A DNA stretch of 64,000 bases from Pseudomonadota bacterium (lineage in GTDB: Bacteria > Desulfobacterota > Syntrophorhabdia > Syntrophorhabdales > Syntrophorhabdaceae), in the NCBI GenBank assembly GCA_026388315.1, contig JAPLKA010000049.1, forward strand, positions 1-64,000. The letters run 5' to 3'. Both the position numbers and the translations under genes were made by a program. This document shows, piece by piece, positions 1 to 16,323 of the stretch. Position 1 is the stretch's first letter, and every line of letters starts with the position of its first letter. The notes below the pieces were generated by a model. It worked only from the letters and a program-made list of their open reading frames with translations. It did no database searches and was not told where the DNA came from.

Positions 1-2573
1 ACCCGGTTCATCCCCGCGTCTGCGGGGAACGTGCAAACTCGTTTGGATTTGCCGAACCGGTTGTCGGTTCATCCCCGCGTCTGCGGGGAACGTAAATATA
101 ATTTATTTTATTTAACACCAAATCGCGGTTCATCCCCGCGTCTGCGGGGAACGTTAAAAAAATCCCCCAATCAGATTGATGTTGCCCGGTTCATCCCCGC
201 GTCTGCGGGGAACGTGCGGCAAGGCTGTTAAGCCCTTCGATGACTACCGGTTCATCCCCGCGTCTGCGGGGAACGTGTCTAACTGGTGTCAATAATATCA
301 ACAGGTTACGGTTCATCCCCGCGTCTGCGGGGAACGTCTTGGTGATATTCGTTGCAAACTTGCCCGTGCCGGTTCATCCCCGCGTCTGCGGGGAACGTTA
401 AGGACATCGCAGAAATATGTTCACCGCAAGCGGTTCATCCCCGCGTCTGCGGGGAACGTTTGAAATAGACCGAGAGGCCTATCACAAATTTCGGTTCATC
501 CCCGCGTCTGCGGGGAACGTAGAAATAAGCGATGATAATATGATGGTTCGGGCGGTTCATCCCCGCGTCTGCGGGGAACGTGGTAGACCCTGTTGACGGG
601 TTGTCCGTGGCAGCGGTTCATCCCCGCGTCTGCGGGGAACGTAATATATTGTGTTTTTTTAGTTGACCAGGCAACGGTTCATCCCCGCGTTTGCGGGGAA
701 CGTGCATCACAGTTTAATTTATCCCAATAGAGAGGCGGTTCATCCCCGCGTTTGCGGGGAACGTTTTCATTGCGGGGGCGGTAATGGGATTAGCGGCGGT
801 TCATCCCCGCGTTTGCGGGGAACGTTAAAACATTTATTACAAAACTGACACATTACCCGGTTCATCCCCGCGTTTGCGGGGAACGTTGCAATTCCCGCAG
901 AATATTTTAATTTCGTTCGGTTCATCCCCGCGTTTGCGGGGAACGTGTTTAATATAATATCTCCACACTGCATGAATTCGGTTCATCCCCGCGTTTGCGG
1001 GGAACGTTTCTTCGGGTACCCAGAGGCCGGAGTCGTCAAGGGTTCATCCCCGCGTTCCTGTCGAGATATCAATGCCGGCGTGCGGTTCATCCCCGCGTTT
1101 GCGGGGAACGTGGATTTTGAAATTTCAACACCGTCTTTTAGCACGGTTCATCCCCGCGTTTGCGGGGAACGTATCGGCACCATACACCCGCCGCCAGTAA
1201 CCATCGGTTCATCCCCGCGTTTGCGGGGAACGTGGTTATATGCGCCTAAACGATAAAGGGGCAGCCGGTTCATCCCCGCGTTTGCGGGGAACGTCCATTC
1301 ATTTGAGACAATCACAACATCATTTTCGGTTCATCCCCGCGTTTGCGGGGAACGTCGGAGCATGAATAACAAGAAGATTTTTACTGCCGGTTCATCCCCG
1401 CGTTTGCGGGGAACGTTTAATCCGGCAGCTTCGAAGATAATAGCAAAGCGGTTCATCCCCGCGTTTGCGGGGCGTTTAATCCGGCAGCTTCGAAGATAAT
1501 AGCAAAGGGGTTCATCCCCGCGTTTGCGGGGAACGTCGCACCATTTACGACGACCAGATGAAAAAGGCCGGTTCATCCCCGCGTTTGCGGGGAACGTGAA
1601 CATTCTCCCACTAAACAGGTTTTAAAGGACGGTTCATCCCCGCGTTTGCGGGGAACGTGTTGTTGTGGTTTTTTAACATCTATTTGTATCCGGTTCATCC
1701 CCGCGTTTGCGGGGAACGTTCCTGGGATGCAAGGTAGAGACGGTCCAGAAACGGTTCATCCCCGCGTTTGCGGGGAACGTGGGCAAATCATCCGCACGCA
1801 ACACGACAACCCCGGTTCATCCCCGCGTTTGCGGGGAACGTGAATACATAATCACGGATGCTGTCGATTATTTCGGTTCATCCCCGCGTTTGCGGGGAAC
1901 GTTCTGTCGTGTCGATCTCACCATACATCTTGATCGGTTCATCCCCGCGTTTGCGGGGAACGTTCGGTGTCAATTGCACTTGTCGTTACAATGAACGGTT
2001 CATCCCCGCGTTTGCGGGGAACGTCGTCAGGTATCTGGTCTATAATATTTCTCGCGCGGTTCATCCCCGCGTTTGCGGGGAACGTAAGTGTGAGCGGGGT
2101 TCTATACATATTACACGCGGTTCATCCCCGCGTTTGCGGGGAACGTAGCATTTTTTCAGCATTGAAAAGGTTAATCGCCGGTTCATCCCCGCGTTTGCGG
2201 GGAACGTCACGGCGGGCAGTTCAGCTTATGGATTGCTCGAGGTTCATCCCCGCGTTTGCGGGGAACGTAGCAAAAATCACATTCACAACTGACCAGGGGT
2301 CGGTTCATCCCCGCGTTTGCGGGGAACGTCAAATGGCTACCATCGGCAAGAATTGGAGTATCGGTTCATCCCCGCGTTTGCGGGGAACGTTTGCTGAAAA
2401 CAAGTCTTTATACCGCGTCAGGCGGTTCATCCCCGCGTTTGCGGGGAACGTGATGGTGTTATAGGCTATTCACCCATCGCATACGGTTCATCCCAGCGTT
2501 TGCGGGGAACGTATTCATACTATCCGTATTGCTCAACACATTACCGGTTCATCCCCGCGTTTGCGGGGAACGT
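1..2573 (-). CRISPR. Type I-E CRISPR array, 43 repeats in view, open at left edge
   Basis: Repeats of 29 bp start at 4, 65, 126, 187 and so on to 2545, with 61-bp periodicity (32-bp spacers; one of 31). On the + strand each begins CGGTTCATCC and ends GGGGAACGT; read on the minus strand it has a 6-bp stem CCCCGC/GCGGGG and ends ATGAACCG, the I-E style 5' handle. The array is therefore inferred to be transcribed leftward, with the leader next to cas2. Repeats 4-642 have loop AGAC, those from 675 onward AAAC. Irregular units: truncated repeat 1040-1056; 27-bp repeat 1449-1475 between two identical spacers; end-base variants at 1040, 1508 and 2240; an internal C-to-A change in the 2484 repeat. 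Bases 1-3 are the end of another spacer, so the array continues outside. Orientation rests on the I-E family and the cas side. Confidence 0.98.
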
Positions 2574-2636
2574 ATTTATTGGAAGCTATGAAAATTATTA
2601 TCAGTTTTCAAAGAGCAAAATTCTACCAAAAAAAAT
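2574..2636 (-). promoter_or_regulatory. CRISPR leader
   Basis: This 63-bp AT-rich stretch between the last repeat and the cas2 stop is the only room for a leader. On the minus strand it has a -10-like GATAAT (2597-2602) about 24 bp before the first repeat, with only a weak -35 (TAGAAT, 2620-2625). The + strand 9-mer TTATTATCA at 2595-2603 recurs twice in the fic-cas1 gap. I found no convincing IHF site. Confidence 0.6.
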
Positions 2637-3852
<1,216 letters not shown>

Positions 3853-3879
3853 CGATCATATCTCCTTTTTGAATATCGT

Positions 3880-3924
3880 TTATTATCACCTTTGTTATCA
3901 CATTAAACGGTTATTATCACCTTT
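3880..3924. repeat. Short direct repeats in the fic-cas1 gap
   Basis: TTATTATCACCTTT occurs exactly twice, at 3880-3893 and 3911-3924; the shared core TTATCAC is also present at 3895-3901, giving three copies at 12- and 19-bp steps. The right copy includes the fic stop codon. The arrangement could be an operator for the fic/DUF1016 pair or cas1, or the footprint of the event that placed the two genes in the operon. Confidence 0.55.
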
Positions 3925-4963
3925 TCCGCCACTTAGCCCCGCGACCTGTTCCCAAAACTTCCAGCTTCCCTTCCGCACGTAGCGCCTCAAGTATGACTCG
4001 AATCATAGGCCGGCTGACCCCTGAACAGATGCTCGCAAGGTCTCCTACGCCGAATTCTTCCGGAAGATGTTCGATTGCCTCGCGTACCCAGGCTGTTTTT
4101 GCCCCACGGCTCGAACGAATAATGCCAACACGGTTTTCAAATTCTCTGTAAGCAGCAATTAAGATCCCAAGGCTATATTCCCACCATGGAAGAATTGCAT
4201 GCCTCCTCCCCTCTTTCCAGTTTTCAGAAACACGATTCAGGACTTCATAATAGCTCTCTTTGCTTTCCTCAATCAGCCGTTCAAGACTGATATACCGGCT
4301 CACGTCATAACCGCTCTGATGGAGCAGCAGCACAGTAAGCAACCGGGATACACGCCCGTTTCCATCGGTGAAAGGGTGGATACAGAGGAAATCAAGCACG
4401 AAGGCGTGAAGCAACAGCAGGCGGTCTATCCGCCCTTCTTCCCACAGACGATTAAAGCGGGTGCACAACTCATTCATATAGAACGGTGTCTCCTGGGCTG
4501 AGACAGGCATATATCGCGTGATCCACCGTCCATCCGGGAGCCTTTCCTCAATCGTATTGTCTCGCCTTTTCCATTCACCGGCAGGAAGATCGGTTCGGCT
4601 GAGCATGTCACGATGGATTTTCAAGATCGTTTCCGGTGTTATAGAAAAACGTTCATAGGTAGTGTGAATGCGGGATAACACATCTTTATATCCCAGAACT
4701 TCAGCCTCCGACCGGTTTGCGGGGGTGGCTCCTTTTTCCAGAAGTGGCTTAAGACGTTTTTCATCAACAATGACCCCTTCGATCCGGTTCGATGATTCAA
4801 CGCTTTGAATAATGGCAACCTGCTTGAGTGTGTTCAAGACCTGGGGCATCTGTCGTGTATAGAGCTCCTGCTTTCCCCTGTATTCGCCCAATAGGCGCAT
4901 GGTCCCGGCAAATTCCAGAGGAATTGCCTGTTGTTCAAGAAACTCACGATCCAATGACTTCAT
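3917..4963 (-). CDS. Fic-domain protein (AMPylase type) with C-terminal winged helix, embedded in the cas operon
   Basis: This 348-residue protein has the full Fic core HPFTDGNGRVSR at residues 196-207, matching HxFx(D/E)GNGRxxR, so it should be able to transfer AMP or another nucleotide moiety from NTP to a target hydroxyl. An N-terminal inhibitory-helix motif, SNRIEG at 58-63, fits (S/T)xxxE(G/N), as in class II Fic proteins that are self-inhibited. The last ~70 residues look like a winged-helix DNA-binding domain. The start codon overlaps the stop of the DUF1016 gene (ATGA), so the two are translationally coupled. The target is unknown. Fic proteins of this layout are usually stand-alone; its position between cas6e and cas1 is unusual. 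Confidence 0.92.
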   Translation of the reverse strand: MKSLDREFLEQQAIPLEFAGTMRLLGEYRGKQELYTRQMPQVLNTLKQVAIIQSVESSNRIEGVIVDEKRLKPLLEKGATPANRSEAEVLGYKDVLSRIHTTYERFSITPETILKIHRDMLSRTDLPAGEWKRRDNTIEERLPDGRWITRYMPVSAQETPFYMNELCTRFNRLWEEGRIDRLLLLHAFVLDFLCIHPFTDGNGRVSRLLTVLLLHQSGYDVSRYISLERLIEESKESYYEVLNRVSENWKEGRRHAILPWWEYSLGILIAAYREFENRVGIIRSSRGAKTAWVREAIEHLPEEFGVGDLASICSGVSRPMIRVILEALRAEGKLEVLGTGRGAKWRKR

Positions 4964-6021
4964 TCTCTAACATCCTCCTGAGATAACTTTGTTTCCATTT
5001 CAAACATGGAACGTTCTCTGAGCAGCTCGGCTGTCAACTCCTCTTCGGAAGGCAAGTACAGCTTGTATCGGGAGGCAAATATCTGTTTGTTGTCTTCAGG
5101 CAGTGTATATCGGACTACCGCGTCACTCTTGTCGGAACAAAGAATGATGCCGACAGGCGGATTATCACCTTCATTCATCATCTCCCGTGTGTAATAATTG
5201 ACATACATCTGCATCTGACCCAAATCCTGGTGCATCAAAGTACCGACCTTCAGGTCAATCAGAACAAAACACTTGAGGATATAGTTGTAGAAAACGAGGT
5301 CGATATAGAAATGCCGACCGTCGAGCGTGAACCGCTTCTGCCGAGCCACAAAGGAAAATCCTTTTCCCAGTTCCAATAGGAAGTCCTGTAACTTATCTAT
5401 GAGCGCCGATTCGAGGTCCTTTTCCCGAAAACATGGGGCATCTCCGAGTTGGAGGAATTCAAGCACGTATGGATCTTTGATCAAGTCTTCGGGCGTGGGT
5501 CCGGTCTCCAGTTGGGCAATTTCTTCTCTTACCGGCTTTCTGTCACGACTGGCAAGCAGACGCTCATAGTAGAAGGAGTTAATCTGTCGCTCAAGCTGGC
5601 GAGTACTCCAATTTCCGACGATACATTCCTCCATGTAGAATTTCCGTATATCCTCGCGTTCGACCTTGAGCAGCAAGCGATAGTGAGTCCACGATAATTC
5701 TGAACGCAATGCGTTCACTTTTGGATAAGCGAGGAAGAAACTACGCATAAACCAAAGGTTACGGGAATCAAATCCTTTCCCAAATTCAATGGATAGCCTT
5801 GTCGAAAGCTCCTCAATTAAACGTGTTCCGTACACCGCCCGTTCTTCTCCTTGCTGCTCTTCTTCCACGATCAGTCTGCCGATATTCCAGTACGTCTGCA
5901 CCATTGCAATATTTACCGAACGGTATGCCTTGCTCCGTGCCTCAACAAGAACAGCCTTTATCTGATTGTAAACTCCAGAGATTCCCTTCTCAACCGCTGT
6001 ATCTTTATTGTTTTCCCTCAT
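4960..6021 (-). CDS. DUF1016 (YhcG-type) PDDEXK nuclease, embedded in the cas operon
   Basis: The 353-residue product has the two domains of the YhcG/DUF1016 family: an N-terminal helical region (WNIGRLIVEEE, then SELSWTHYRLLL) and a C-terminal PDDEXK nuclease fold, with D250 in HFYIDLVFYN and D265-x-K267 in LIDLKVG (numbering from the upstream TTG at 6048). I prefer the ATG at 6021 because a GAGG ribosome-binding site precedes it and the upstream codons start with TTG. Family members are predicted DNA nucleases found in defence and mobile contexts. It lies 61 bp after cas6e and overlaps the fic start by 4 bp, so it is probably transcribed with the cas genes. Confidence 0.88.
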   Translation of the reverse strand: MRENNKDTAVEKGISGVYNQIKAVLVEARSKAYRSVNIAMVQTYWNIGRLIVEEEQQGEERAVYGTRLIEELSTRLSIEFGKGFDSRNLWFMRSFFLAYPKVNALRSELSWTHYRLLLKVEREDIRKFYMEECIVGNWSTRQLERQINSFYYERLLASRDRKPVREEIAQLETGPTPEDLIKDPYVLEFLQLGDAPCFREKDLESALIDKLQDFLLELGKGFSFVARQKRFTLDGRHFYIDLVFYNYILKCFVLIDLKVGTLMHQDLGQMQMYVNYYTREMMNEGDNPPVGIILCSDKSDAVVRYTLPEDNKQIFASRYKLYLPSEEELTAELLRERSMFEMETKLSQEDVRE

Positions 6022-6082
6022 ATCCGCCTCACAAGCATCAAGCCGCAACCGAAGGCCTTGGCAGGACCGATGCCATAAACCT

Positions 6083-6757
6083 TCATCCTATTGGCACCAC
6101 CGACAGGAGTCCAAGTCCCATGACTTTTCCATGGCCGATGCCGTTTTGCAGCGCATCCCTGAATTTCACCGGGTCGGTAACCGTGAGAATTCCGTCGTAG
6201 AGTACCGAAAAAATCCGAAGCGCATTACCGGAACGCTGGTTGCCTCGGAGCATCTGCTCCTGTGATATCCGCACATCGCTCCGCTCCCCTGTTGTTTCTA
6301 AAAAATCGAAAGATGCAAGTTTCGGTAGCGAGAATCCATGCTGCACCCCTTTGCGCTCCAACCATGTTTCCTGCTCCTCCAACCGTAGTAACCCCAGACG
6401 CTTGCCATTGCGTGTTACGCAGGGGTTAGCACGCACCCTGTAACGAAAACGTTGCCCGGCCGTAAGTAAATCGAGTTTGAGCCGGTCTTTCAGGTTAATG
6501 GCTGGGTCAACCTTTGCCAACCATCGTTCGATCCCAATGCCAGTCCAGTCTGGGATGGACCTGCTTTGTACCAGAATGCGTGGGAGTCCAGTGGGGTCAG
6601 CCTCCGGCTCAAGCCTCCACAGAAACTCGCCTTCAGGGCATTTTCTATCCGGCATACTGAAAGCTCGGCACAAGGTGGAGTGAAGCTGGTAGTGATCGGA
6701 CAGGTCGCGCCTGGCCTCCCTGCAACGTAGATCAAGATGAATTCTATGCAGGAACAT
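6083..6757 (-). CDS. cas6e: Cas6e pre-crRNA endoribonuclease (Cse3/CasE)
   Basis: A 224-residue Cas6e. The glycine-rich RNA-binding loop GIGHGKVMGLGLLSV is at the C-terminus, and the N-terminal segment DHYQLHSTLCRAF contains the histidine that is catalytic in this family. It cuts the array transcript at the base of each repeat hairpin and remains bound in Cascade. It overlaps cas5e by 14 bp. It is the last effector gene before the DUF1016/fic insertion, which separates the effector from the adaptation genes. Confidence 0.95.
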   Translation of the reverse strand: MFLHRIHLDLRCREARRDLSDHYQLHSTLCRAFSMPDRKCPEGEFLWRLEPEADPTGLPRILVQSRSIPDWTGIGIERWLAKVDPAINLKDRLKLDLLTAGQRFRYRVRANPCVTRNGKRLGLLRLEEQETWLERKGVQHGFSLPKLASFDFLETTGERSDVRISQEQMLRGNQRSGNALRIFSVLYDGILTVTDPVKFRDALQNGIGHGKVMGLGLLSVVPIG

Positions 6758-7439
6758 AGCTCACCTCCTTATGGAAGGGAATCCATTCGGAGCGCACAAA
6801 ACGTGCCCCGAAGCGTCTTTCGGCAAATGACGACAGTGGCTGGTCCATCTTGAGTACGCCCGATTCGTCCTTTGACTCAAATGAGACCAGGAGTTTCTCG
6901 GGAATCTCTTCCCATCTCCGCTGAGTCGCAATCCATGGCCACCGCGCCAAAACTTCTCGCAGCGAAGCATCCTGTAGACCATTGTCAATCCAGATTGGTT
7001 CGGAGGGCACATAGGATTTGCGTCCCAAGGCGAGCGGCCAAGTCGGGTTCATCAGCTTGACATGTGCTTCTTCAAGAAGCGCATGTTCATCGCCTTCAAG
7101 CCCTACCAGAAAAGCCGCATCAGCAAGGTAGTGACGCTGGGAAACAACGCCATCCCTGGAAGGGCTTCCGTCCGCCTTAATGATTGTGTCGGTTGAAGCG
7201 CATCCCGCTGTTTGATAATCCCGCTTGGGTACCCCTGGCCGATCATGACGCACCCCCATCGATAGACGTGTTAGTGGTTCCAAATCCAACCAGTTCTCGC
7301 GGTCTATACCGAGGGCGGCAGCCAAAAGCCCGATAACACCGGACTTGCTCGGTTCCTTCCCTGTATCGCGTTGGTCAAAACGGCTGGTGGTTCCCCATGA
7401 TTGCAAAGGCCCCACCAAGCGAAGCAATAGGGTGGGCAT
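6744..7439 (-). CDS. cas5e: Cascade subunit Cas5e (CasD)
   Basis: The 231-residue product has the Cas5e N-terminal signature (LLRLVGPLQSWGTTSRFDQR) followed by PSKSGVIGLLAAALG. In Cascade it grips the 5' handle of the crRNA next to Cse1. The length is normal. It starts 3 bp after cas7e and overlaps cas6e, consistent with one polycistronic mRNA. Confidence 0.95.
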   Translation of the reverse strand: MPTLLLRLVGPLQSWGTTSRFDQRDTGKEPSKSGVIGLLAAALGIDRENWLDLEPLTRLSMGVRHDRPGVPKRDYQTAGCASTDTIIKADGSPSRDGVVSQRHYLADAAFLVGLEGDEHALLEEAHVKLMNPTWPLALGRKSYVPSEPIWIDNGLQDASLREVLARWPWIATQRRWEEIPEKLLVSFESKDESGVLKMDQPLSSFAERRFGARFVRSEWIPFHKEVSYVPA

Positions 7440-7442
7440 AGG

Positions 7443-8606
7443 TCACTCCTTTACGGCCAGAATGGCCTTTTCTAAAAGGGTCTTCAATGTTGTCTCAACA
7501 GTTCCGAAACCTTCCAATTTGGCATTGACAAGATTCAAAATAAATGTATCATCCTGGCCACCAAAAGCAGATTGGAGGGCAGTTGCCTTCTTCGCGAGTT
7601 CCTCTGCTGACTTCCTGGTCAATGACTCATCCTTTCTCACACGAATAGGGATTTCAAAGGCGTTGGCCAGGTTTCTGGGTGAGGTGTTTCGCCGCACAGA
7701 AACGACGACAAACTCTGGCGGATTATGGGCAGCGAAGGAATTCTGCATGCCGGTAGGCTCGGCTACTACAAAGCCTTCCAAGAAGGCATGTAGCCCCTTG
7801 CTGGCCAGTTCCGTGTCTTGTTGGAGATTCGCCACGAGTTTCTCCCAATCAATCACAGCGTAGCGGTAAAAACAGGCTGAATTGAACTCCACGGTTCCCA
7901 TCATGTCGGCACCGGCAGTATCCTCCGGCTTGAGGTCGTCCACGGCGGTGTAGAAGTCGAATTCCCGCTCGACAGCATGGGTCGAAATAGCGTGTGCCAC
8001 CTGGCAGGCAGCGTTCTGGTTTTTCTCAGGCATATCGGCCAGCATGCGCCCGAAGAGCGCCACATCCAGGGCCTTGCCGCCGTTAAAAATCTTTTCGAGG
8101 GCCTTCTTTAATTCCGGATCGGCGCTCTGGGCGGCCTGTTTCTTAGCCTTGCCAGGCTTCTTGCCTTCAGCAGGCGCGGTTGTCTCGGATGGGGCAATGG
8201 AGTCCCATCTACCATGGATGATATCTGCAATGCTGGAAATTTCGCGCTGCCCAAGAAAAAGGAGATATTCGCTCTTCCCGTCGTCTTTCACTGAGAGCTC
8301 GATGGCTGCCAGTGCCAAGCGCGCCTTTTCAGTAGCTTCAGTCTCGCCCCTTCCTTTTTCGATCAAGGCACTGGAGATGGCATCCAAGACACGCTTGGTA
8401 CGGACAGCGATATCATCCTTTTTTAGAGCCTGTTGTTCCACCAGTCCCAGGAAATGCTGACGGATCGAACGTTTGAGACATTGGCTGGACACGCGCGCGC
8501 GACGAGCACCTCCGAAGAGGGCATCCTTAGGGGCTCCGGTGTCGTCCCGGTTCAGGTTTGACGGGACAAAGTTCTGCAGGGCATGAATTTCGATCAGAGT
8601 TTTCAT
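7443..8606 (-). CDS. cas7e: Cascade backbone subunit Cas7e (Cse4/CasC)
   Basis: A 387-residue Cas7e with the hallmark N-terminus (IEIHALQNFVPSNLNRDDTG then KDALFGG and RVSSQCLKRSIRQHF). Six copies normally coat the crRNA spacer in Cascade. There is a short lysine/alanine-rich insertion (about residues 145-165, GKKPGKAKKQAAQ) compared with the compact E. coli protein, probably a surface loop. It overlaps cse2 by 4 bp (ATGA). Confidence 0.95.
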   Translation of the reverse strand: MKTLIEIHALQNFVPSNLNRDDTGAPKDALFGGARRARVSSQCLKRSIRQHFLGLVEQQALKKDDIAVRTKRVLDAISSALIEKGRGETEATEKARLALAAIELSVKDDGKSEYLLFLGQREISSIADIIHGRWDSIAPSETTAPAEGKKPGKAKKQAAQSADPELKKALEKIFNGGKALDVALFGRMLADMPEKNQNAACQVAHAISTHAVEREFDFYTAVDDLKPEDTAGADMMGTVEFNSACFYRYAVIDWEKLVANLQQDTELASKGLHAFLEGFVVAEPTGMQNSFAAHNPPEFVVVSVRRNTSPRNLANAFEIPIRVRKDESLTRKSAEELAKKATALQSAFGGQDDTFILNLVNAKLEGFGTVETTLKTLLEKAILAVKE

Positions 8607-9121
8607 TTGTTTTCTTCCTCCTTTATAGTGGGTTCTGTTTCGTTCTCATGTTTAATATTTCGGTAGAAGTCTCGTGCCCAAGAGTTCTGGGTACGCTTCT
8701 GGTCGTCGTTCCAATACAGGAGTCCCTTCAATAAGGCGTCGAAGTCTATGGAATGTTCCTTGAGAAGGGCGATCGTTTGACGCAGGCGGTGCGTCAATTG
8801 GTCGGGATCGGCATCGAGCAGGTTGATGAAGCGGTTCTCGGTATTCGTGGAACCACTTGCCATCTGGTAAGTCGCGCACGCCTGTCCGAGCGACGTGGGC
8901 TTTCCTTTCTGGCCTTCGCGCCAGTGCATGGCCCAGAGGCCAGCCACCAGATAGTGCATCTCCCGTCGCCAAGGGTTGTCTTCATCCTTCACAAAAGGTT
9001 CGACATAAGGATAAGCAGGCACATATGTGCCAGGATCGAAGGCAAGACTACGTCGCAAGACAGCCCTCACCTTGGTGTCTTTTTCATTCAGGCCTTCCAG
9101 CCATTTGATGAATCCGTTCAT
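8603..9121 (-). CDS. cse2: Cascade small subunit Cse2 (CasB)
   Basis: At 172 residues this is the size expected of Cse2. The conserved central part is recognisable (RREMHYLVAGLWAMHW, then NTENRFINLLDADPDQL) and is followed by the C-terminal helices. Two copies normally line the belly of Cascade and stabilise the R-loop. It begins 11 bp after cse1 and is coupled to cas7e. Confidence 0.92.
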   Translation of the reverse strand: MNGFIKWLEGLNEKDTKVRAVLRRSLAFDPGTYVPAYPYVEPFVKDEDNPWRREMHYLVAGLWAMHWREGQKGKPTSLGQACATYQMASGSTNTENRFINLLDADPDQLTHRLRQTIALLKEHSIDFDALLKGLLYWNDDQKRTQNSWARDFYRNIKHENETEPTIKEEENK

Positions 9122-9132
9122 GATTCCTCCTT

Positions 9133-10659
9133 CTACGTTTCGAGTTTCTTTATCTCGTCATTTAGCTCCTTCAGTTTGCGCAGTACCGGCCCTTCAGCTT
9201 TCACGAGGGCACGGATGGCCCAGGCATCGCCTGTGGATACCGACGCGCTGTGCTGTCTCCATGCAGACTTCAAAGTGTCGCGGACCGCCTTCAACCATTG
9301 GTAGCGAATGGCATCGGAATCCCGGTCGAGAGTGTATTCACGCAGGATATCGTGAAAGTTGGATTCCAGGGTGGACCAGTACCATGAGTTCGCGGGCATC
9401 TGTTCCATAAAACTACTGATATCCTTGCCAGTTGGTTTTCGATCCCCCCGACTCAAGAGATCACGCGCAAAGGAACGGCAGGCCATCCAGAGGGATTTCT
9501 GGACATCCTCGGCATCCTCGAGGAGTTGTTTTATCTCTGTTCGGATGAAACGTTCTCCTGCCAGCGCCTCCGGCAGGGCGAAACACTCCATCCGCCAGTA
9601 CTCAATCTTGGCCTTGTTGTTTGACTGACCAAGTACGATTACCGATCGCGGGAACCGCTCACGCTCCGAGCGGGTTAATGTTGTGGCATGTTCGATCACT
9701 TGGGGCGCAAGATGCGACTCATCGGGGAGCAACGAATCAAAATCCCGCCAGAGTCCTCGATCACGGAACTGGATTGGTAGTTTTCCTCTTTTATCATCAA
9801 TTCTGTAGGCAAACATAGGATCAACGTGATTCTGAGATGAACACGCTACACCTGATGCGAAAAGCAATTCACCAACTGTCAATCCATCCGCATGGAGGTT
9901 GAATCGGATAGATCGCGTTCTCCATGAATACAGGTCAGCCAATCCATTGATGGCTCTTTCCGCACCTTGTTGAAGTAATGTTATAGAGTCTGGTTCTCTC
10001 TCCCAGACAGGGATATCAACTTGTAATACTTCTCTATTTTCTGGGATTAGCGAAAAAACGAGTGTATCGAGAAGGGTCATTCCCAATGGCACGATCATTA
10101 CCGAGGTTGCAGATGGTCCACTCTTGGTGTAGTTGAAATCGCTGTTTCCTCCGCCAAGGGCGAAAGTTTGACAAGCTATCAAAAACCGTACTGCCTTGCT
10201 CGAAGGGATTAAGCCTGCCCCAGTAATCTCAATATGATCAAAGAGAACTTTGGCATTATCTGCATTATGCTCTGCGGCCATTGCTATCCATGGTCGCCAC
10301 TTCTTTTTACCTTTTTCTTCTTTTGGCTCATATCCAGGCACCTGATAGAATGGATACTTCTCATCAAATAGCCAGAACCGATTCCGCCACTTTTCCAAGT
10401 AGCCAGTGATCTTCTCGCCCGGTAGACCATCCCTGAACAGAACCTTCGCCTGCTCAATGTCCATCGGTCCTTCAAGGGCTCGGTACAGGACCGCGAGCAG
10501 AAAGCGATGCAAGGCTGCCACGACCAGCGGGGACGGGTCCTCGATGGCTGCTATTTCACGGGACCGTAGCAGGGTGTCGCGGATGCCCAGTTCGTCGCGG
10601 GTTCCATCAGGGAATCTCACCGGAATCCATTTCTCTTCAATCAGGTTGAATCGCCTCAT
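9133..10659 (-). CDS. cse1: Cascade large subunit Cse1 (CasA, Cas8e)
   Basis: The 508-residue product starts RFNLIEEKWIPVRFPDG, the standard Cse1 opening, and keeps the internal region FDEKYPFYQVPGYEP. Cse1 recognises the PAM, opens the target and recruits Cas3. The C-terminal four-helix bundle is present (to KELNDEIKKLET). The start overlaps the cas3 stop by 4 bp. Confidence 0.95.
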   Translation of the reverse strand: MRRFNLIEEKWIPVRFPDGTRDELGIRDTLLRSREIAAIEDPSPLVVAALHRFLLAVLYRALEGPMDIEQAKVLFRDGLPGEKITGYLEKWRNRFWLFDEKYPFYQVPGYEPKEEKGKKKWRPWIAMAAEHNADNAKVLFDHIEITGAGLIPSSKAVRFLIACQTFALGGGNSDFNYTKSGPSATSVMIVPLGMTLLDTLVFSLIPENREVLQVDIPVWEREPDSITLLQQGAERAINGLADLYSWRTRSIRFNLHADGLTVGELLFASGVACSSQNHVDPMFAYRIDDKRGKLPIQFRDRGLWRDFDSLLPDESHLAPQVIEHATTLTRSERERFPRSVIVLGQSNNKAKIEYWRMECFALPEALAGERFIRTEIKQLLEDAEDVQKSLWMACRSFARDLLSRGDRKPTGKDISSFMEQMPANSWYWSTLESNFHDILREYTLDRDSDAIRYQWLKAVRDTLKSAWRQHSASVSTGDAWAIRALVKAEGPVLRKLKELNDEIKKLET

Positions 10660-13310
10660 TTGGCCTCCTTTGTCTCGTACACCAGTCCTAAGTCGTCATC
10701 CAGCCTCACGGTCGCATCCTCCAACCAGTATCCCTCCGCGTTCAACATCAGCGGGAAACAGTTCCGCAACAGCGGGGACTTCTTCCACCCTTCAGGTACC
10801 CCCGACGCCTTAAGTTCCTTGACCACGCCCTTGCGCGACAGGCTCACGGCCCGGAGAAACCAGCCTCTTGCCTGAAAGAAGTCCGGTATCTCTTCGGCTC
10901 GGAATCCGTCTTCCAAAAATAACGGGATAGCTATAATTGATTCTTCACCAAGCCTGGTTCGAGCCATGAGGGTTCGATGCACACCAAGTTCGTCTTCGTC
11001 GTACAGAACAAATCTCTCCGGCTGGTTCCATGATGCATCATCGGGGAAGCCAATGATAGCCTGGTTTGCCTGACCATGCTTGAGAACAGCTTCGCCCTCG
11101 CCTTTCATCAAGGATTTCTCCAGTCTCTCCCACAGAGATTCAGGCAGCTTCGCCTGCTCTTCGTACACAGCCTGCACCAATGTATCGATCTCGTCCGGCA
11201 AGGTCAAACCTTGTCGCTCTCGGAGTAGACTCCACGTGCGCAACAGCACATCTTCACGATAGACAGCACCCCACCACAAAGGCTTTCCGAATGATGGTGG
11301 TTCGTCACCGGAAAGTCCCGCCACAAGGAGGGTCGGTTCGGAAACTGGCCTGGAGGCACGCGCGTGCCGCCACAAGCGTCCCGCTCGTTGAAGTACAAGG
11401 TCTATGGGCGCAAGGTCAGTCATGATCAGGTCGAAGTCCAGGTCGAGGCTCTGCTCGGCTACCTGCGTGGCAATGAGGATTTTACGGCCAGTACGAGTTC
11501 CGTGTTCTCCAAAAATCCCCAGGACCTGGTCTTCGCGTTTCTGACGCTGGTCTGCCGGAAACCGAGCATGGAAAAGGAATACCTCCGTGCCGTCAGACAG
11601 GCGTTTACCCACTTGCTGTCCTTCGCGCACCAGTGGTTCCCCCACAGGGAACAGTCTGTAAAGATCCTGCGCGCGCTGTACCGTATTGACCAGTACCAGT
11701 CCCATGCCGCCACTGGCAAGGTGCTCTTCCAATGAAGCGTACATACTGGGCAAATCCGGGGGAATCCGCAGGAGACGCAGAGTCTTACGACGTGCAGGAT
11801 CAGCCTCGAAATGTTTCTGTGCAACTTCGCCTGAGCGAAATATGGAAAGGCGTGGGTATGGCTTCTCTTGTTCTGGAAAGTCAGCACCTACCACATCAGC
11901 CAACTTGCGGCGAATAGATGGCGGTAAAGTTGCAGAGAGAAGCACCACCGATGAGCCAAGTGCAAGGAGCCAGCGCAACAGATGAACCAGAAGTGTTCCC
12001 GTGTAAGCGTCATAAGCATGGATCTCGTCGAAAACAACCACACGATTTGCCAAGCCCCACATACGAACAAAGTTGTGTCGCACAGGCAAAATGGGCAGGA
12101 GTGCCTGATCCACTGTACCCACGCCATATTCCGATAGAAGCGCTCGCTTCTTGTTTGTGAACCATTCTCCAGCACGGATCTCACCGCCCGTTTCGGGATC
12201 GTGGATGCCTGAAAACCGCAGATTCTGGAAGGTGTCGTTAAGTAGAGTCGCTCCGTGCAGCAATTGCAGGTCGAGCTTTCGGTCTATTTCTTGGTGCCAC
12301 AAGAATTTCAAGGTTCGCTTGAACATGGCATTTCCGGTGGCTTTAGTCGGCAAAGCGACATACAAGCCACGGTGCCCAAAGCGTCGCTGCAACTCCAGAT
12401 GTGCAAAAAAGGCTGCCTCGGTTTTGCCCTCGCCCATGGGGGCTTCAATCAACAGAATCGCGGGGTTATTCATATCAGCTAATGCATCAGCAACAGCCTT
12501 CTGCAATGGGCGAGGAGCGAAGCCAAAGACCTGCTCGAAGGACTTTAGCTCCAAGGAAAGCGGGGTTCTGGGTTCCCATCCGATTGTGTCCAAGGCCTTA
12601 TCGGCACGGGCTCTGCGCTTATTGAACCATCCCTGCAAGGCCCCACAGTCCGCGATGGTGCCAAAGGGGAACCAATCTTCGTTAGAACCAATCCAGTCAG
12701 CAAAGCTCGTGAGTCCCGACAAAAGCATAAAATCTGGACCGGACAGAGACTCTTTTGAGGGTACTCTGTCGGGGTGAAAAACCTCTTGGATGGATTTAAA
12801 GAGGCCATGACGAGCGTCCACCCATTCTGGGTTGCCCAGTGCCCTACGGTTTCCTTCCAAGCTATACAAGGTTGTCGGATTAGCCCTCTCTCCGTGGTGA
12901 CATCCTACCGCATCGGCCACCAACCCAGCCAACTCATAAGGCCAGCCCCTCTCGTAAAGCAACTCCGTCAGGACGATCTGGCTTACAAAAGCGTGATTAA
13001 TCTTGGTATCAGGACTTCGAGGGAGTTGCAAACCCGTCATGGGGGCCTCCGGCCACTTATACTGGAAACCAGGACAGGCCTTTCCTATATCATGACAGGC
13101 CACTATGAGCAATAACCACGCTCTTGCATCCTCCCACTCCAAGCCCAGGATTGCTGCCATCCTTTTGCGAGTCGATTCCGGCTCACGCGCCAGGATGGCA
13201 TCCACGCTGGCGGCCACATCAAGCATATGAAAAACCAGAGGGTGCCACCTTCCGTTGCCATCCCTGTCCGTTTTCGCCCAAAGATTTGCTATTGCTTTAT
13301 AAATATCCAT
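10656..13310 (-). CDS. cas3: Cas3 nuclease-helicase (type I-E)
   Basis: About 884 residues, HD nuclease then SF2 helicase. HD motifs: WHPLVFHMLDVAAS near residue 23, CHDIGK near 73, CHHGE near 142. Helicase motifs: EAPMGEGKTEAAF near 290, VVFDEIHAYD near 430, and QRAGRLWRH in motif VI. Cas3 is recruited by target-bound Cascade, nicks and unwinds 3'-5'. I chose the ATG at 13308-13310 because AGGTG sits just upstream; a GTG two codons earlier (13316) is also possible. A 42-codon gene ends 11 bp before it. Confidence 0.95.
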   Translation of the reverse strand: MDIYKAIANLWAKTDRDGNGRWHPLVFHMLDVAASVDAILAREPESTRKRMAAILGLEWEDARAWLLLIVACHDIGKACPGFQYKWPEAPMTGLQLPRSPDTKINHAFVSQIVLTELLYERGWPYELAGLVADAVGCHHGERANPTTLYSLEGNRRALGNPEWVDARHGLFKSIQEVFHPDRVPSKESLSGPDFMLLSGLTSFADWIGSNEDWFPFGTIADCGALQGWFNKRRARADKALDTIGWEPRTPLSLELKSFEQVFGFAPRPLQKAVADALADMNNPAILLIEAPMGEGKTEAAFFAHLELQRRFGHRGLYVALPTKATGNAMFKRTLKFLWHQEIDRKLDLQLLHGATLLNDTFQNLRFSGIHDPETGGEIRAGEWFTNKKRALLSEYGVGTVDQALLPILPVRHNFVRMWGLANRVVVFDEIHAYDAYTGTLLVHLLRWLLALGSSVVLLSATLPPSIRRKLADVVGADFPEQEKPYPRLSIFRSGEVAQKHFEADPARRKTLRLLRIPPDLPSMYASLEEHLASGGMGLVLVNTVQRAQDLYRLFPVGEPLVREGQQVGKRLSDGTEVFLFHARFPADQRQKREDQVLGIFGEHGTRTGRKILIATQVAEQSLDLDFDLIMTDLAPIDLVLQRAGRLWRHARASRPVSEPTLLVAGLSGDEPPSFGKPLWWGAVYREDVLLRTWSLLRERQGLTLPDEIDTLVQAVYEEQAKLPESLWERLEKSLMKGEGEAVLKHGQANQAIIGFPDDASWNQPERFVLYDEDELGVHRTLMARTRLGEESIIAIPLFLEDGFRAEEIPDFFQARGWFLRAVSLSRKGVVKELKASGVPEGWKKSPLLRNCFPLMLNAEGYWLEDATVRLDDDLGLVYETKEAK

Positions 13311-13321
13311 GTACACCTACA

Positions 13322-13450
13322 TTACTGTTTGTTTCCTGCAACCGTCGTAACGCACAGACGCTGATGCATCGGCGGCTGGCAGTCATGCTCCCCCGGACAA
13401 TCGGGGCCACCTTTACCCCAGTATCGGAAATAGTCAGGCAGTTCGTTCAT
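13322..13450 (-). CDS. 42-residue small protein between the exonuclease gene and cas3
   Basis: The ATG overlaps the stop of the DEDDh exonuclease gene (ATGA) and the TAA lies 11 bp before the cas3 ATG, so coupling on both sides suggests a real gene. The product begins MNELPDYFRYWGKGGPDC and contains a C-x5-C pair (CPGEHDC) and several histidines. The YWGK-x(n)-H pattern recalls the first ~30 residues of many Cas3 HD domains, so it could be a leftover of a previous cas3 5' end rather than a functional peptide. I know no family for it. Confidence 0.55.
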   Translation of the reverse strand: MNELPDYFRYWGKGGPDCPGEHDCQPPMHQRLCVTTVAGNKQ

Positions 13451-13995
13451 TTTCTCCTCATCTCCATCCAAACCTGCGCTGTAAGGCGGGCATCGTCAAG
13501 AGCGCGGTGGCGCCCCTGCATATTCACCAGTATGCCCAGGTGTCGTGCGACCGTTTCCAATCTGTAGTTCGGCAATCCCGGATAGAGTTTCCTGCTCATC
13601 TTTAAGGTGCACTTATGAGGATTGATCAGTGTATGGCCCAAACGCCAGTATTCATACCTGAGAAACCAAACATCAAAAACAGCATTATGGGCCACCAGCG
13701 TGCTGCTTCCGATGAAATACCGAAATGCCGCCAGAGCCTCCTCCGGTTTAGGTTGCCCGGCAAGCATGTCCGTCGTGATGCCGTGCACCTTCTGCGCCTT
13801 TTTTGTGATTGGTTTATCTGTAAAAATAAGACTGCTGAATTCTTCCCCCATAACACCCCCGTTTACTGCAACCGCCCCGATCTCAATAATCCTGTGGCCC
13901 TGCTCAACAAACAACCCTGTGGTTTCCACATCGAAGACAACATACCTCTTCCCTCGTTTATTATCGCAGTCGTTAATTCCTGTCCGCTCCTTCAT
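13447..13995 (-). CDS. DEDDh 3'-5' exonuclease (DnaQ/epsilon-like), first gene upstream of cas3
   Basis: A 182-residue exonuclease with all three Exo motifs: VVFDVETTGLF near 20-30 (D22, E24), HNAVFDVWFL near 100 and HRALDDARLTAQVW near 163-176 (H and D). GGAG lies just before the ATG. Such proteins trim single-stranded 3' ends. DnaQ-like domains are known to be fused to Cas2 in some I-E systems and to process prespacers, so linkage to cas3 by coupled small gene and short gaps is suggestive. It could equally be an independent repair nuclease. Confidence 0.85.
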   Translation of the reverse strand: MKERTGINDCDNKRGKRYVVFDVETTGLFVEQGHRIIEIGAVAVNGGVMGEEFSSLIFTDKPITKKAQKVHGITTDMLAGQPKPEEALAAFRYFIGSSTLVAHNAVFDVWFLRYEYWRLGHTLINPHKCTLKMSRKLYPGLPNYRLETVARHLGILVNMQGRHRALDDARLTAQVWMEMRRK

Positions 13996-14433: not shown

Positions 14434-15375
14434 TCACACCATGGGTTTTTTCTTAACCGGCTTCTCCGGCACCGGTTCCGGGGCAATCGGTATCCGCAGT
14501 TCCACTAAGGCACAGAAAACATGCAGCTCATCAAGAAGCGTTACAAGATCGGGCCGTGTGTATTTTGCGAAGCCTGTCTCAATGCTTGACTCTACGGATC
14601 GCAAGTTGGCAATCTGCTTTGTCATAGGTATGAGCTTCGTTTTGCCCGGCTCCGACTTGACCTTCTTATATGCTGTAAGTAGATTGTTCAGGGTGGCATT
14701 AGTTACAGGTGTCTTCATGATGTTGGTAAATATCTGCATGCGGTCGGGACATTCGAGGTTGGCAGCGAAGAGATATCCCTGGGAAACGGAGAGATTTCCT
14801 TGCCGGATAGCAGCCTGAATCTCATCAGGCAATTTTAAGAGCGATAGCCCGTTAAACAGCGTATTTATTGACTTTCCGGTGATTTCAACAATTGCCCCAA
14901 CTGTTGGGGCAATTTTATCAGACAGATCCTCGGGTCTTCGTTTGTAACTTACCAAGTCATTCATCACTCCATCCACATCATAGGTTTTATCAGGTAATTT
15001 TGCCTGAATAAATGCCAATACCCCTTTTGCTTGGTCAATCGGGTTGAGGTCTTCTCTCTGAAGGTTCTCCGTCAGTTGGAAGGCAAGTATTTCATCTTTC
15101 TGAGTGATCTCATCAAGTATGCGCGCCGGTATTGTTGGGAGCCCCAGTTTCAGCGCAGCAAGATAACGGCGTTCTCCGCAGAGGAGCAAGTATTTGCCGT
15201 CTTTAGGTGTCACAAGGACAGGCTCTAAGACGCCCCGGTCTTTAATGGACTCCATAAGGGACTTAAAGGACTCACTCTCCGTATCGATGCTTGACCTGAT
15301 CTGTTCTTCAATAATAATATCCCCTAAGGACAGATACAGGAACTCTGGATTCTCAACTGTTTTCTTTGTTGCCAT
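14434..15375 (-). CDS. ParB/RepB/Spo0J-family DNA-binding protein
   Basis: The 313-residue product has the ParB N-terminal domain with LLCGERRYLAALKLG (box II type) and LTENLQREDLNPIDQAKG (box III), then a helix-turn-helix region around residues 165-190 (EITGKSINTLFNGLSLLKLP). Family members bind parS-like palindromes and many are CTP-dependent clamps. No parA neighbour exists, so this is an orphan ParB, probably of mobile-element origin. AAGGAGG precedes the ATG. The C-terminal tail is proline/lysine rich. A frameshifted relative lies at 41542-41795, and a 25-bp palindrome is embedded just before the HTH. Confidence 0.9.
   Translation of the reverse strand: MATKKTVENPEFLYLSLGDIIIEEQIRSSIDTESESFKSLMESIKDRGVLEPVLVTPKDGKYLLLCGERRYLAALKLGLPTIPARILDEITQKDEILAFQLTENLQREDLNPIDQAKGVLAFIQAKLPDKTYDVDGVMNDLVSYKRRPEDLSDKIAPTVGAIVEITGKSINTLFNGLSLLKLPDEIQAAIRQGNLSVSQGYLFAANLECPDRMQIFTNIMKTPVTNATLNNLLTAYKKVKSEPGKTKLIPMTKQIANLRSVESSIETGFAKYTRPDLVTLLDELHVFCALVELRIPIAPEPVPEKPVKKKPMV
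14890..14914. repeat. 25-bp perfect palindrome inside the ParB-like gene
   Basis: The 5' arm is AATTGCCCCAAC, the centre T, and the right arm is its exact complement. It encodes part of KIAPTVGAIVE just ahead of the helix-turn-helix. The corresponding site in the pseudogene copy (41686-41710) is also a perfect 12-bp-arm palindrome with different inner bases. Confidence 0.9.
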
Positions 15376-15498
15376 ATTATTCCTCCTTATTTAGTGAATA
15401 GTGAATAGTCGATAGTGAATAGTTAAAGACATTTTATTAACCTCATTGAAACATTACTGCCTTACACTCGCCCATTCCCAGGTGACTTAAACGTTGTT
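15376..15498. other. Bro-ParB gap with tandem words
   Basis: The 123-bp gap holds tandem AGTGAATAGTGAATAGT words (15388-15422) belonging to the dispersed short-word repeats seen at many gene borders in this window. No promoter or terminator is evident besides the parB ribosome-binding site. Confidence 0.5.
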
Positions 15499-16323
15499 TC
15501 ACTTCGGGAACCTTTTTTTCTCTTTCTGGGTTATCGCCAGATAATTTTCCGATGTAACAACCTTCTTCTTCGTTTCCTTCTCCAATTCTTGACGGGCGTC
15601 TCCGGCAATCCGGCCGCCTTTTCGGGCAGCGGTGCGATTCTTATCAAAACCCTGGGCGTCTTGTGTCCGGGTAATCTCCGTCGTGGCTGCTTCTCCCAGC
15701 ATAGAAAAGATCAATTCGAGATCGGTCATGTGATCCCTGAGGTTTTCACGCTCCAAACCCTTCAGGTCTTTGTACTCAGAAGGGGTTAGTCCGAACGTTG
15801 CCTTTGAGATTTCGGCGGTCAGTATAGCATATTCTCGTTCAGCACCCACTTCCCGGTTTTTCCATTCGTCGGTCAATTCGGCACGAACGGCTATACCACG
15901 CATTCTTTTCTCTATCCAGTCATCGGAATATCCCTTGGCCTTATAGAGCGCACGGGTCCTCTTTGTTCCCAGTTCAGGATCTTCGATCTCCTGCACCCGT
16001 TCATAGCCGACCTTTGCCAGCCAGCGTTTGAATGGCTCTGCCTTGGGGGAAGGAACGGATTGAATGATGCGGAAGAGGCCTTCGGTGTTGGCGCAAAGCA
16101 TGTTCTGAGCCCCGCCGAACGTTTCGATGGGAAGGGTATGTACAATTTGTACCCACCCTTTGCCAAGTTCGGGGTCGCGCTGCTTCATGCGCTGGATGTA
16201 CTGTTTTGGATCTCTGGAGTCGATCAGAGCCAATACAACATCTTCGACAACAAACCACCATTCATTGTTGTAAATCGTCTTCCTGATTCCTTTGCCTCTG
16301 AAAACCGCTATGTGAGATTCCAA
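15499..16323 (-). CDS. Bro-N domain protein (phage antirepressor-like)
   Basis: In this 274-residue protein the first ~110 residues form a Bro-N domain (IRKTIYNNEWWFVVEDVVLAL, then NTEGLFRIIQSVPSPKAEPFKRWLA), the DNA-binding module of phage antirepressors and baculovirus Bro proteins. The C-terminal half is helical and charged (EREYAILTAEISKATFGLTP, DLELIFSMLGEAATTEITR, then KNRTAARKGGRIAGDARQELE), a layout seen in bacterial chromosomal Bro proteins of unknown role. It is probably co-transcribed with the ParB-like gene, 123 bp downstream. There are no other phage genes nearby. Confidence 0.88.
   Translation of the reverse strand: MESHIAVFRGKGIRKTIYNNEWWFVVEDVVLALIDSRDPKQYIQRMKQRDPELGKGWVQIVHTLPIETFGGAQNMLCANTEGLFRIIQSVPSPKAEPFKRWLAKVGYERVQEIEDPELGTKRTRALYKAKGYSDDWIEKRMRGIAVRAELTDEWKNREVGAEREYAILTAEISKATFGLTPSEYKDLKGLERENLRDHMTDLELIFSMLGEAATTEITRTQDAQGFDKNRTAARKGGRIAGDARQELEKETKKKVVTSENYLAITQKEKKRFPK

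Follow-up and report, generated by a model that had tools for sequence, protein, structure and literature searches.

A recurrent site for candidate defense genes at the effector/adaptation seam of type I-E and I-C CRISPR-Cas operons

Why would a nuclease gene and a Fic gene lie inside a cas operon, exactly where the effector genes end and the adaptation genes begin? The question is raised by a 64,000-nucleotide stretch of DNA from a member of the Syntrophorhabdaceae (contig JAPLKA010000049.1 of GenBank assembly GCA_026388315.1, positions 1 to 64,000), here called the window. A preliminary description of its sequence had proposed that the two genes act either as a second line of defense or as an addiction module guarding Cascade. 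We used profile searches, structure models, phylogenetic trees and comparisons of gene order to evaluate these possibilities.

Two extra genes in a complete type I-E operon

The window carries cas3, cas8e, cse2, cas7e, cas5e, cas6e, cas1e and cas2e with an adjacent array, and so encodes a type I-E system. The features considered here are as follows.

1..2573, plus strand: CRISPR array, repeat CGGTTCATCCCCGCGTTTGCGGGGAACGT, 61-bp period
2945-2637, minus strand: cas2e (TIGR01873, 127 bits)
3852-2926, minus strand: cas1e (TIGR03638, 378 bits; cut-off 215.6)
3853..3916, minus strand: Fic-cas1 intergenic region of 64 bp with the ribosome-binding-like AAAAAGGAGA inside
4963-3917, minus strand: class-II Fic AMP-transferase-like gene, 348 aa (Pfam, PADLOC, motifs, structure model)
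6021-4960, minus strand: DUF1016/YhcG PD-(D/E)XK nuclease gene, 353 aa (Pfam, PADLOC PDC-S02)
6018..6074, minus strand: remnant 3' end of a second cas6e, GIGPAKAFGCGLMLVRRI plus stop (16 of 18 residues as in the NaphS2 cas6e end)
6757-6083, minus strand: resident cas6e of the GHGKVMGLGLLSVVP type (profile matches)
6744..13316, minus strand: cas3-cas8e-cse2-cas7e-cas5e (Pfam and PADLOC matches), comprising the next five genes
7439-6744, minus strand: cas5e
8606-7443, minus strand: cas7e
9121-8603, minus strand: cse2
10659-9133, minus strand: cas8e
13316-10656, minus strand: cas3
13447..13995, minus strand: DnaQ-like 3'-5' exonuclease gene, 5' of cas3 (Pfam RNase_T, 138 bits)
15499..16323, minus strand: Bro-N gene of the PDC-S13 family (Pfam Bro-N)

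The preliminary description of the locus was confirmed, with one correction. The DUF1016 and Fic genes are both intact and lie between cas6e and cas1 of the complete operon, and remeasured coordinates reproduced the tight spacing from cas3 to cas6e (gaps of -4, +11, -4, +3 and -14 bp), the wider borders of the pair (61 bp on the cas6e side and 64 bp on the cas1 side) and the ATGA overlap that joins the DUF1016 stop to the Fic start. The lengths of the two border gaps thus stood; the 61-bp gap is more than spacer and encodes the tail of another cas6e.

The assignment of the pair as a nuclease and a self-inhibited Fic protein was also borne out. The DUF1016 protein scores 203 bits against Pfam YhcG_C and 158 bits against DUF1016_N (cut-offs of ∼33), and 495 bits against PADLOC PDC-S02. 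It also matches the PADLOC PD_DExK “CAS associated” profile (E = 5e-45), which means that DUF1016-type nucleases have been flagged as CRISPR-linked before. Its PD-(D/E)XK signature is intact and residues D241, D256, K258 and Q269 are invariant in an alignment of 39 sequences, which together with the two domain matches places it in the DUF1016/YhcG nuclease family. A PDB sequence search with this protein returned no match, and its structure model (pTM 0.47) gave generic PD-(D/E)XK matches only, such as EndoMS, Can2 and Card1.

The Fic protein scores 63 bits against Pfam Fic, above the curated cut-off, and 128 bits against the PADLOC SoFic model. Class-II Fic AMP-transferases were recognized by an HPFx[D/E]GNGRxxR catalytic motif and an N-terminal [S/T]xxxE[G/N] inhibitory helix; the window protein has both intact (HPFTDGNGRVSR and SNRIEG), and AMPylation activity is predicted. 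Its structure model (pLDDT 89) contains a helix at 40-62 and a predicted C-terminal winged-helix-like domain. With SoFic it shares membership in class II, the N-terminal inhibitory helix and a similar fold (3eqx and 3zcn are among the top fold matches). It scores far below the SoFic equivalog cut-off (NF046030, 48 bits versus 550) and, unlike SoFic, sits in a cas operon; the closest solved relative and fold is the Bordetella bronchiseptica Fic protein, 8uqu.

At least nine related I-E loci also have the DnaQ-like exonuclease gene in this position next to cas3 (tblastn; L119, L120, L125-L127, L129, L131, L209 and L212). DnaQ-type exonucleases trim prespacers in other systems, and the window enzyme may for this reason be part of adaptation.

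Assembly of the junction from another operon

The 61-bp gap 5' of DUF1016 encodes the last codons of a cas6e different from the resident one (KVYGIGPAKAFGCGLMLVRRI plus stop), and the stop of this remnant overlaps the DUF1016 ATG. The matching cas6e directly precedes DUF1016 in NaphS2, and a similar cas6e-tail scar precedes DUF1016 in a further genome (G285). The slot block thus travels with cas1-cas2 and leaves a cas6e-tail scar behind. Based on the tail in the gap, we conclude that the DUF1016-(Fic)-cas1-cas2 block of the window originated in an operon with another cas6e and was grafted onto the present Cascade.

The Fic gene looks like a later, gene-sized insertion: nucleotide homology between the window and a same-genus genome (G286) begins at the Fic ATG and ends 37 bp beyond the Fic stop. 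The flanks of Fic in G286 match both sides of the window Bro-N gene (a 72-bp upstream match on one side and ParB on the other), as though the two genes were cassettes that can replace each other. A ParB-like gene adjoins Bro-N in the window (14434-16323, minus strand), and at L210:1807-5811, from a same-genus genome, Fic stands in the place of Bro-N between matching flanks. This arrangement suggests cassette exchange at a second site, the ParB/Bro-N locus. The window Bro-N is 68 to 75% identical to copies in the slot of L117, L118, L127, L134 and L348.

Two other loci, L345 (G513, 6842-8660) and L347 (G455, 5650-7963), have Fic with cas4 fragments on one or both sides, and these flanks resemble a recombination scar like the window cas6e tail. 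Across loci, cas1e-cas2e modules of ∼80% identity are joined to several different Cascades (L120, L129 and L134 versus L119, L126 and L127 versus the window), which we told apart by cas6e C-terminal motifs. Cas1 remains ∼80% identical between loci whose cas6e drops to ∼25%, a pattern indicative of widespread exchange of effector modules around cas1e-cas2e.

Such exchange would also be expected if the seam were simply a recombination breakpoint at which neutral cassettes hitch-hike, persisting without benefit or any link to CRISPR. The joining of one adaptation block to several Cascade types, the cas6e-tail scars and, in L287 and L289, the fragments of cas4 next to Fic all fit this explanation, as do cargo that is diverse and frequently missing and signs of decay (Bro-N is a remnant in L010, and the DUF1016 of G207 has lost its catalytic stretch). 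We nonetheless consider it unlikely, given features of the cargo that neutral persistence would not predict. The repertoire is narrow and drawn from defense-candidate families; catalytic motifs are intact in nearly all copies and all slot genes are co-oriented; the Fic genes of G207 and G425 are under purifying selection (dN/dS of ∼0.13); and dedicated clades are maintained across genera and subtypes, as described below.

A recurrent position across genera and subtypes

To place these features in context, open reading frames were called mechanically in genomes of which many are draft assemblies or MAGs, and gene contexts were judged within ∼1.5 kb unless longer sequence was fetched. A cas1e search of 395 genomes from the phylum of the window found matches in 42. 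The census of I-E loci comprised 19 with cas1e genes ∼78 to 83% identical, leaving out the window and three loci obtained with DUF1016. In 10 of these, one or more extra genes lie between the effector genes and cas1; the junction is empty in the other 9. The cargo of the 10 occupied slots consists of Bro-N (4 loci), DUF1016, Fic, RhuM-Fic, a 23S-IVP protein, an HI1420-type antitoxin-like gene and a DUF433/DUF5615 pair. Inserts were found at none of the 21 slots of more distant cas1e loci (<70% identity; Fisher p ∼1e-4 between the cas1e clades) and at none of 84 effector-internal junctions of the 19 loci (p ∼6e-9 for slot versus internal junctions, computed on 80 junctions). Internal gaps of ≥300 bp were ruled out as insertions, as every one holds an uncalled cse2, cas5e or cas6e. 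The slot is also empty in the closest named plasmid I-E locus examined, from Ideonella.

The same position is used in type I-C. In G182, a type I-C operon has a Fic 86% identical to that of the window, placed between its cas4 and cas1 genes, and a Fic search of the class of this genome (155 genomes, picked because it contained a match) revealed the order cas7-Fic-cas4-cas1 in several genera. Based on a cas1c search of the same class, 19 of 30 I-C loci have Fic, Bro-N, RhuM-Fic or DUF1016 beside cas4/cas1 according to HMM labels, with some copies partial at locus ends; the slot is empty in the other 11. One locus (L348, from G490, 1221-12433) reads cas7-Fic-cas4-RhuMFic-BroN-cas1-cas2 and has more RhuM-Fic and Bro-N genes 5' of cas3. 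The slot position thus recurs in both subtypes and among unrelated genera, and its genes invariably share the strand of cas1 (66 of 66 counted slot genes, some loci being counted more than once). The families involved match PADLOC models (PDC-S02 for DUF1016, S13 for Bro-N, S23/S05 for RhuM-Fic and SoFic for Fic); these loci conform to the pattern of embedded defense genes, in which candidate defense genes are recurrently nested in a multi-gene immune operon.

We scanned the DUF1016 protein against 84,980 GTDB genomes and listed the best 80 loci. Among these, DUF1016 lies immediately 5' of cas1e, at a distance of a few base pairs or overlapping, in NaphS2 (L003), a Desulfobacterales MAG (L004) and another MAG (L010), which rank 1, 2 and 8; a fourth case, in G285, came from the cas1e search. 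L004 has a broken cas1, and its DUF1016 overlaps a different Fic gene on the other side. This locus (147-9962) is a defense-island remnant with two RhuM genes, TIR-like and large ATPase-like genes, Fic, DUF1016 and the broken cas1.

In the DUF1016 tree, the seven cas-linked copies split into two clades made up of such copies alone (SH-aLRT 97 and 95), and a single cas-linked clade was rejected (p-AU 0.0001). Another family member in the window's own genome (L002) lies between methylase-like and HsdS-like genes of a type I restriction-modification operon, a placement likewise amid defense-operon genes; the cas-linked clades are separate from this copy. The DUF1016 nearest to that of the window (71 to 74% identity, depending on the alignment) is found in G425 upstream of cas3, in a locus where a 78%-identical Fic lies 2 bp before cas1. 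The layout in G207 is the same, with DUF1016 and Fic at opposite ends of the cas operon in both. The two genes thus also associate with this kind of locus in other genera, but apart from each other. The cas-linked DUF1016 of G207 (L212, 6726-7643) has lost its catalytic stretch in frame, and the neighboring Fic is intact.

Of 66 Fic homologues placed in a tree, 18 are embedded in cas operons at the effector/adaptation junction. These belong to two clades (SH-aLRT 100 each) in which 6 of 7 and 12 of 15 members are cas-embedded (18 of 22 jointly) and each of which contains both I-E and I-C members; outside these clades, no Fic (0 of 44) adjoins cas genes. The cas-embedded Fics of the tree retain the active-site and inhibitory motifs. 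In an unselected draw from the phylum, 40 Fic places outside the window reached E of 1e-70 or better, and 5 of them were beside cas genes, compared with a chance expectation of ∼0.2 if cas loci make up 0.5% of a genome. CRISPR-dedicated clades therefore exist for both Fic and DUF1016.

A viral origin of the cassettes was rejected: none of 49 Fic homologues in viral contigs has a cas gene in the available flanks. In the phylum of a Planctomycetia MAG (G400), 0 of 24 Fic loci are beside cas genes, which for now confines the CRISPR association to certain lineages. In this second phylum, Fics ∼60% identical to an I-C-type Fic adjoin type III restriction-like genes (L355-L361); the Fic of L355 has a DNA methylase on one side and a type III res helicase on the other, and other loci have similar neighbors.

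These counts bear on two checks named in the preliminary description. A chance insertion in one strain is refuted by DUF1016 genes 5' of cas1e in four other loci and by the 18 of 66 cas-embedded Fics. Recurrence beside I-E cas genes, the other check, was seen for the slot and for the single genes and not for the adjacent DUF1016-Fic pair as a conserved unit. Fic and DUF1016 are usually single in the slot, which does not fit a conserved toxin-antitoxin pair, and the window order DUF1016-Fic was seen nowhere else among the loci examined. The recurring unit is the slot, and the tight pair is rare.

Possible roles of the slot genes

With a probability of roughly 0.55, we conclude that in this phylum the effector/adaptation seam of I-E and I-C operons acts as a capture slot, taking up mobile single-gene defense cassettes, which are expressed with the cas genes and probably serve as second-line growth-arrest effectors. 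Two such cassettes, the DUF1016 nuclease and the class-II Fic, would be stacked in the window slot. Judging from the spacing, the slot genes would be expressed from the cas operon. The Fic protein may be restrained by its inhibitory helix and freed during infection, whereupon, by homology, it would AMPylate a host target and arrest growth; DUF1016 may cleave invader or host nucleic acid. Both could then act as a back-up when CRISPR immunity is slow or blocked. Second-line defense is plausible by analogy to SoFic, a class-II Fic that is a toxic abortive-infection protein (PMC12249575), and to the proposal of Makarova et al. (2012) that immunity loci carry suicide or dormancy genes restrained by immune proteins (PMC3506569).

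Empty slots in 9 of 19 I-E and 11 of 30 I-C loci indicate that the cargo is dispensable for CRISPR, and the rotation of unrelated families through the slot argues against one specific partnership. The presence of the same Fic family in other defense contexts, for example beside restriction genes, likewise speaks against such a partnership.

In a rival explanation, the slot genes would be adaptation cofactors, with Fic AMPylating Cas1, Cas2, Cas4 or a host factor and DUF1016 acting as a prespacer-processing nuclease. The genes do adjoin cas1/cas4 regardless of effector type and travel with cas1-cas2. DUF1016, like Cas4, is a PD-(D/E)XK nuclease, type I-E systems are without Cas4, and a DnaQ exonuclease is likewise recurrent in these loci. 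However, Bro-N, RhuM-Fic and toxin-antitoxin pairs occupy the same slot, Fic is also found in I-C loci that possess cas4, many adaptation modules have no slot gene, and the same families occur in restriction systems, which have no adaptation step. We therefore regard such a role as distinctly doubtful. A bolder version, in which CRISPR-dedicated, auto-inhibited Fics are post-translational regulators that sense infection and AMPylate Cas1, Cas4 or a host DNA-repair factor to switch acquisition or to pause the cell for as long as acquisition proceeds, with DUF1016, Bro-N and RhuM-Fic as equivalent modules, is speculative and, in our estimate, a long shot.

The addiction module of the preliminary description was not supported. 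As in CreTA, Cascade would restrain a toxin of the operon, and loss of Cascade would kill the cell. Toxin-like genes do occur within the cas operon without a recognizable antitoxin gene, and CreTA is an established precedent (PMC10097628, PMC8501985) in which a toxin-like element likewise lies amid cas genes. In CreTA, however, the toxin is an RNA and the guide RNA derives from a repeat, whereas the putative slot toxins are proteins, not small RNAs, and no such repeats were found at the window locus. In a search for an ectopic degenerate repeat that could encode CreA, the best match outside the array (18 of 29 positions) equaled those in shuffled sequence (maxima of 16 to 19). Furthermore, 9 of the 19 sister I-E loci are without a slot gene, and a 95%-identical Fic survives in G286, a genome in which no cas1e match was found. 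We consider a module guarding Cascade very improbable.

Returning to the capture slot, genetically embedded defense genes are a published theme (Payne et al., 2024; bioRxiv 10.1101/2024.01.29.577857), as represented in articles that cite it (PMC11411939, PMC12255303, PMC12137116). The loci described here share with this theme, as so represented, the nesting of candidate defense genes in a multi-gene immune system. They differ from it in that the hosts are I-E and I-C CRISPR-Cas systems, the position is one fixed seam and the dedicated clades cross subtypes. They also resemble CRISPR ancillary genes, which are likewise non-core genes linked to cas loci (PMC12669027); Fic, DUF1016 and RhuM are absent from the main text of that 2025 classification. 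In the titles, abstracts and terms of the literature searched, DUF1016 and CRISPR co-occurred as incidental mentions, and we found no description of Fic or DUF1016 at the I-E or I-C effector/adaptation junction. Within that scope, embedding is a known theme, and no account of a slot at the CRISPR seam was found.

The place where effector genes give way to adaptation genes is a defined site at which I-E and I-C operons acquire defense genes, and CRISPR-dedicated Fic and DUF1016 clades can now be named. The grafting scar provides direct sequence evidence that adaptation modules are swapped between operons along with their cargo. With a specific auto-inhibited enzyme beside cas1, the coupling proposed in 2012 (PMC3506569) becomes testable. 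Overall, these loci suggest that a second line of defense is often built into the same package as adaptive immunity.
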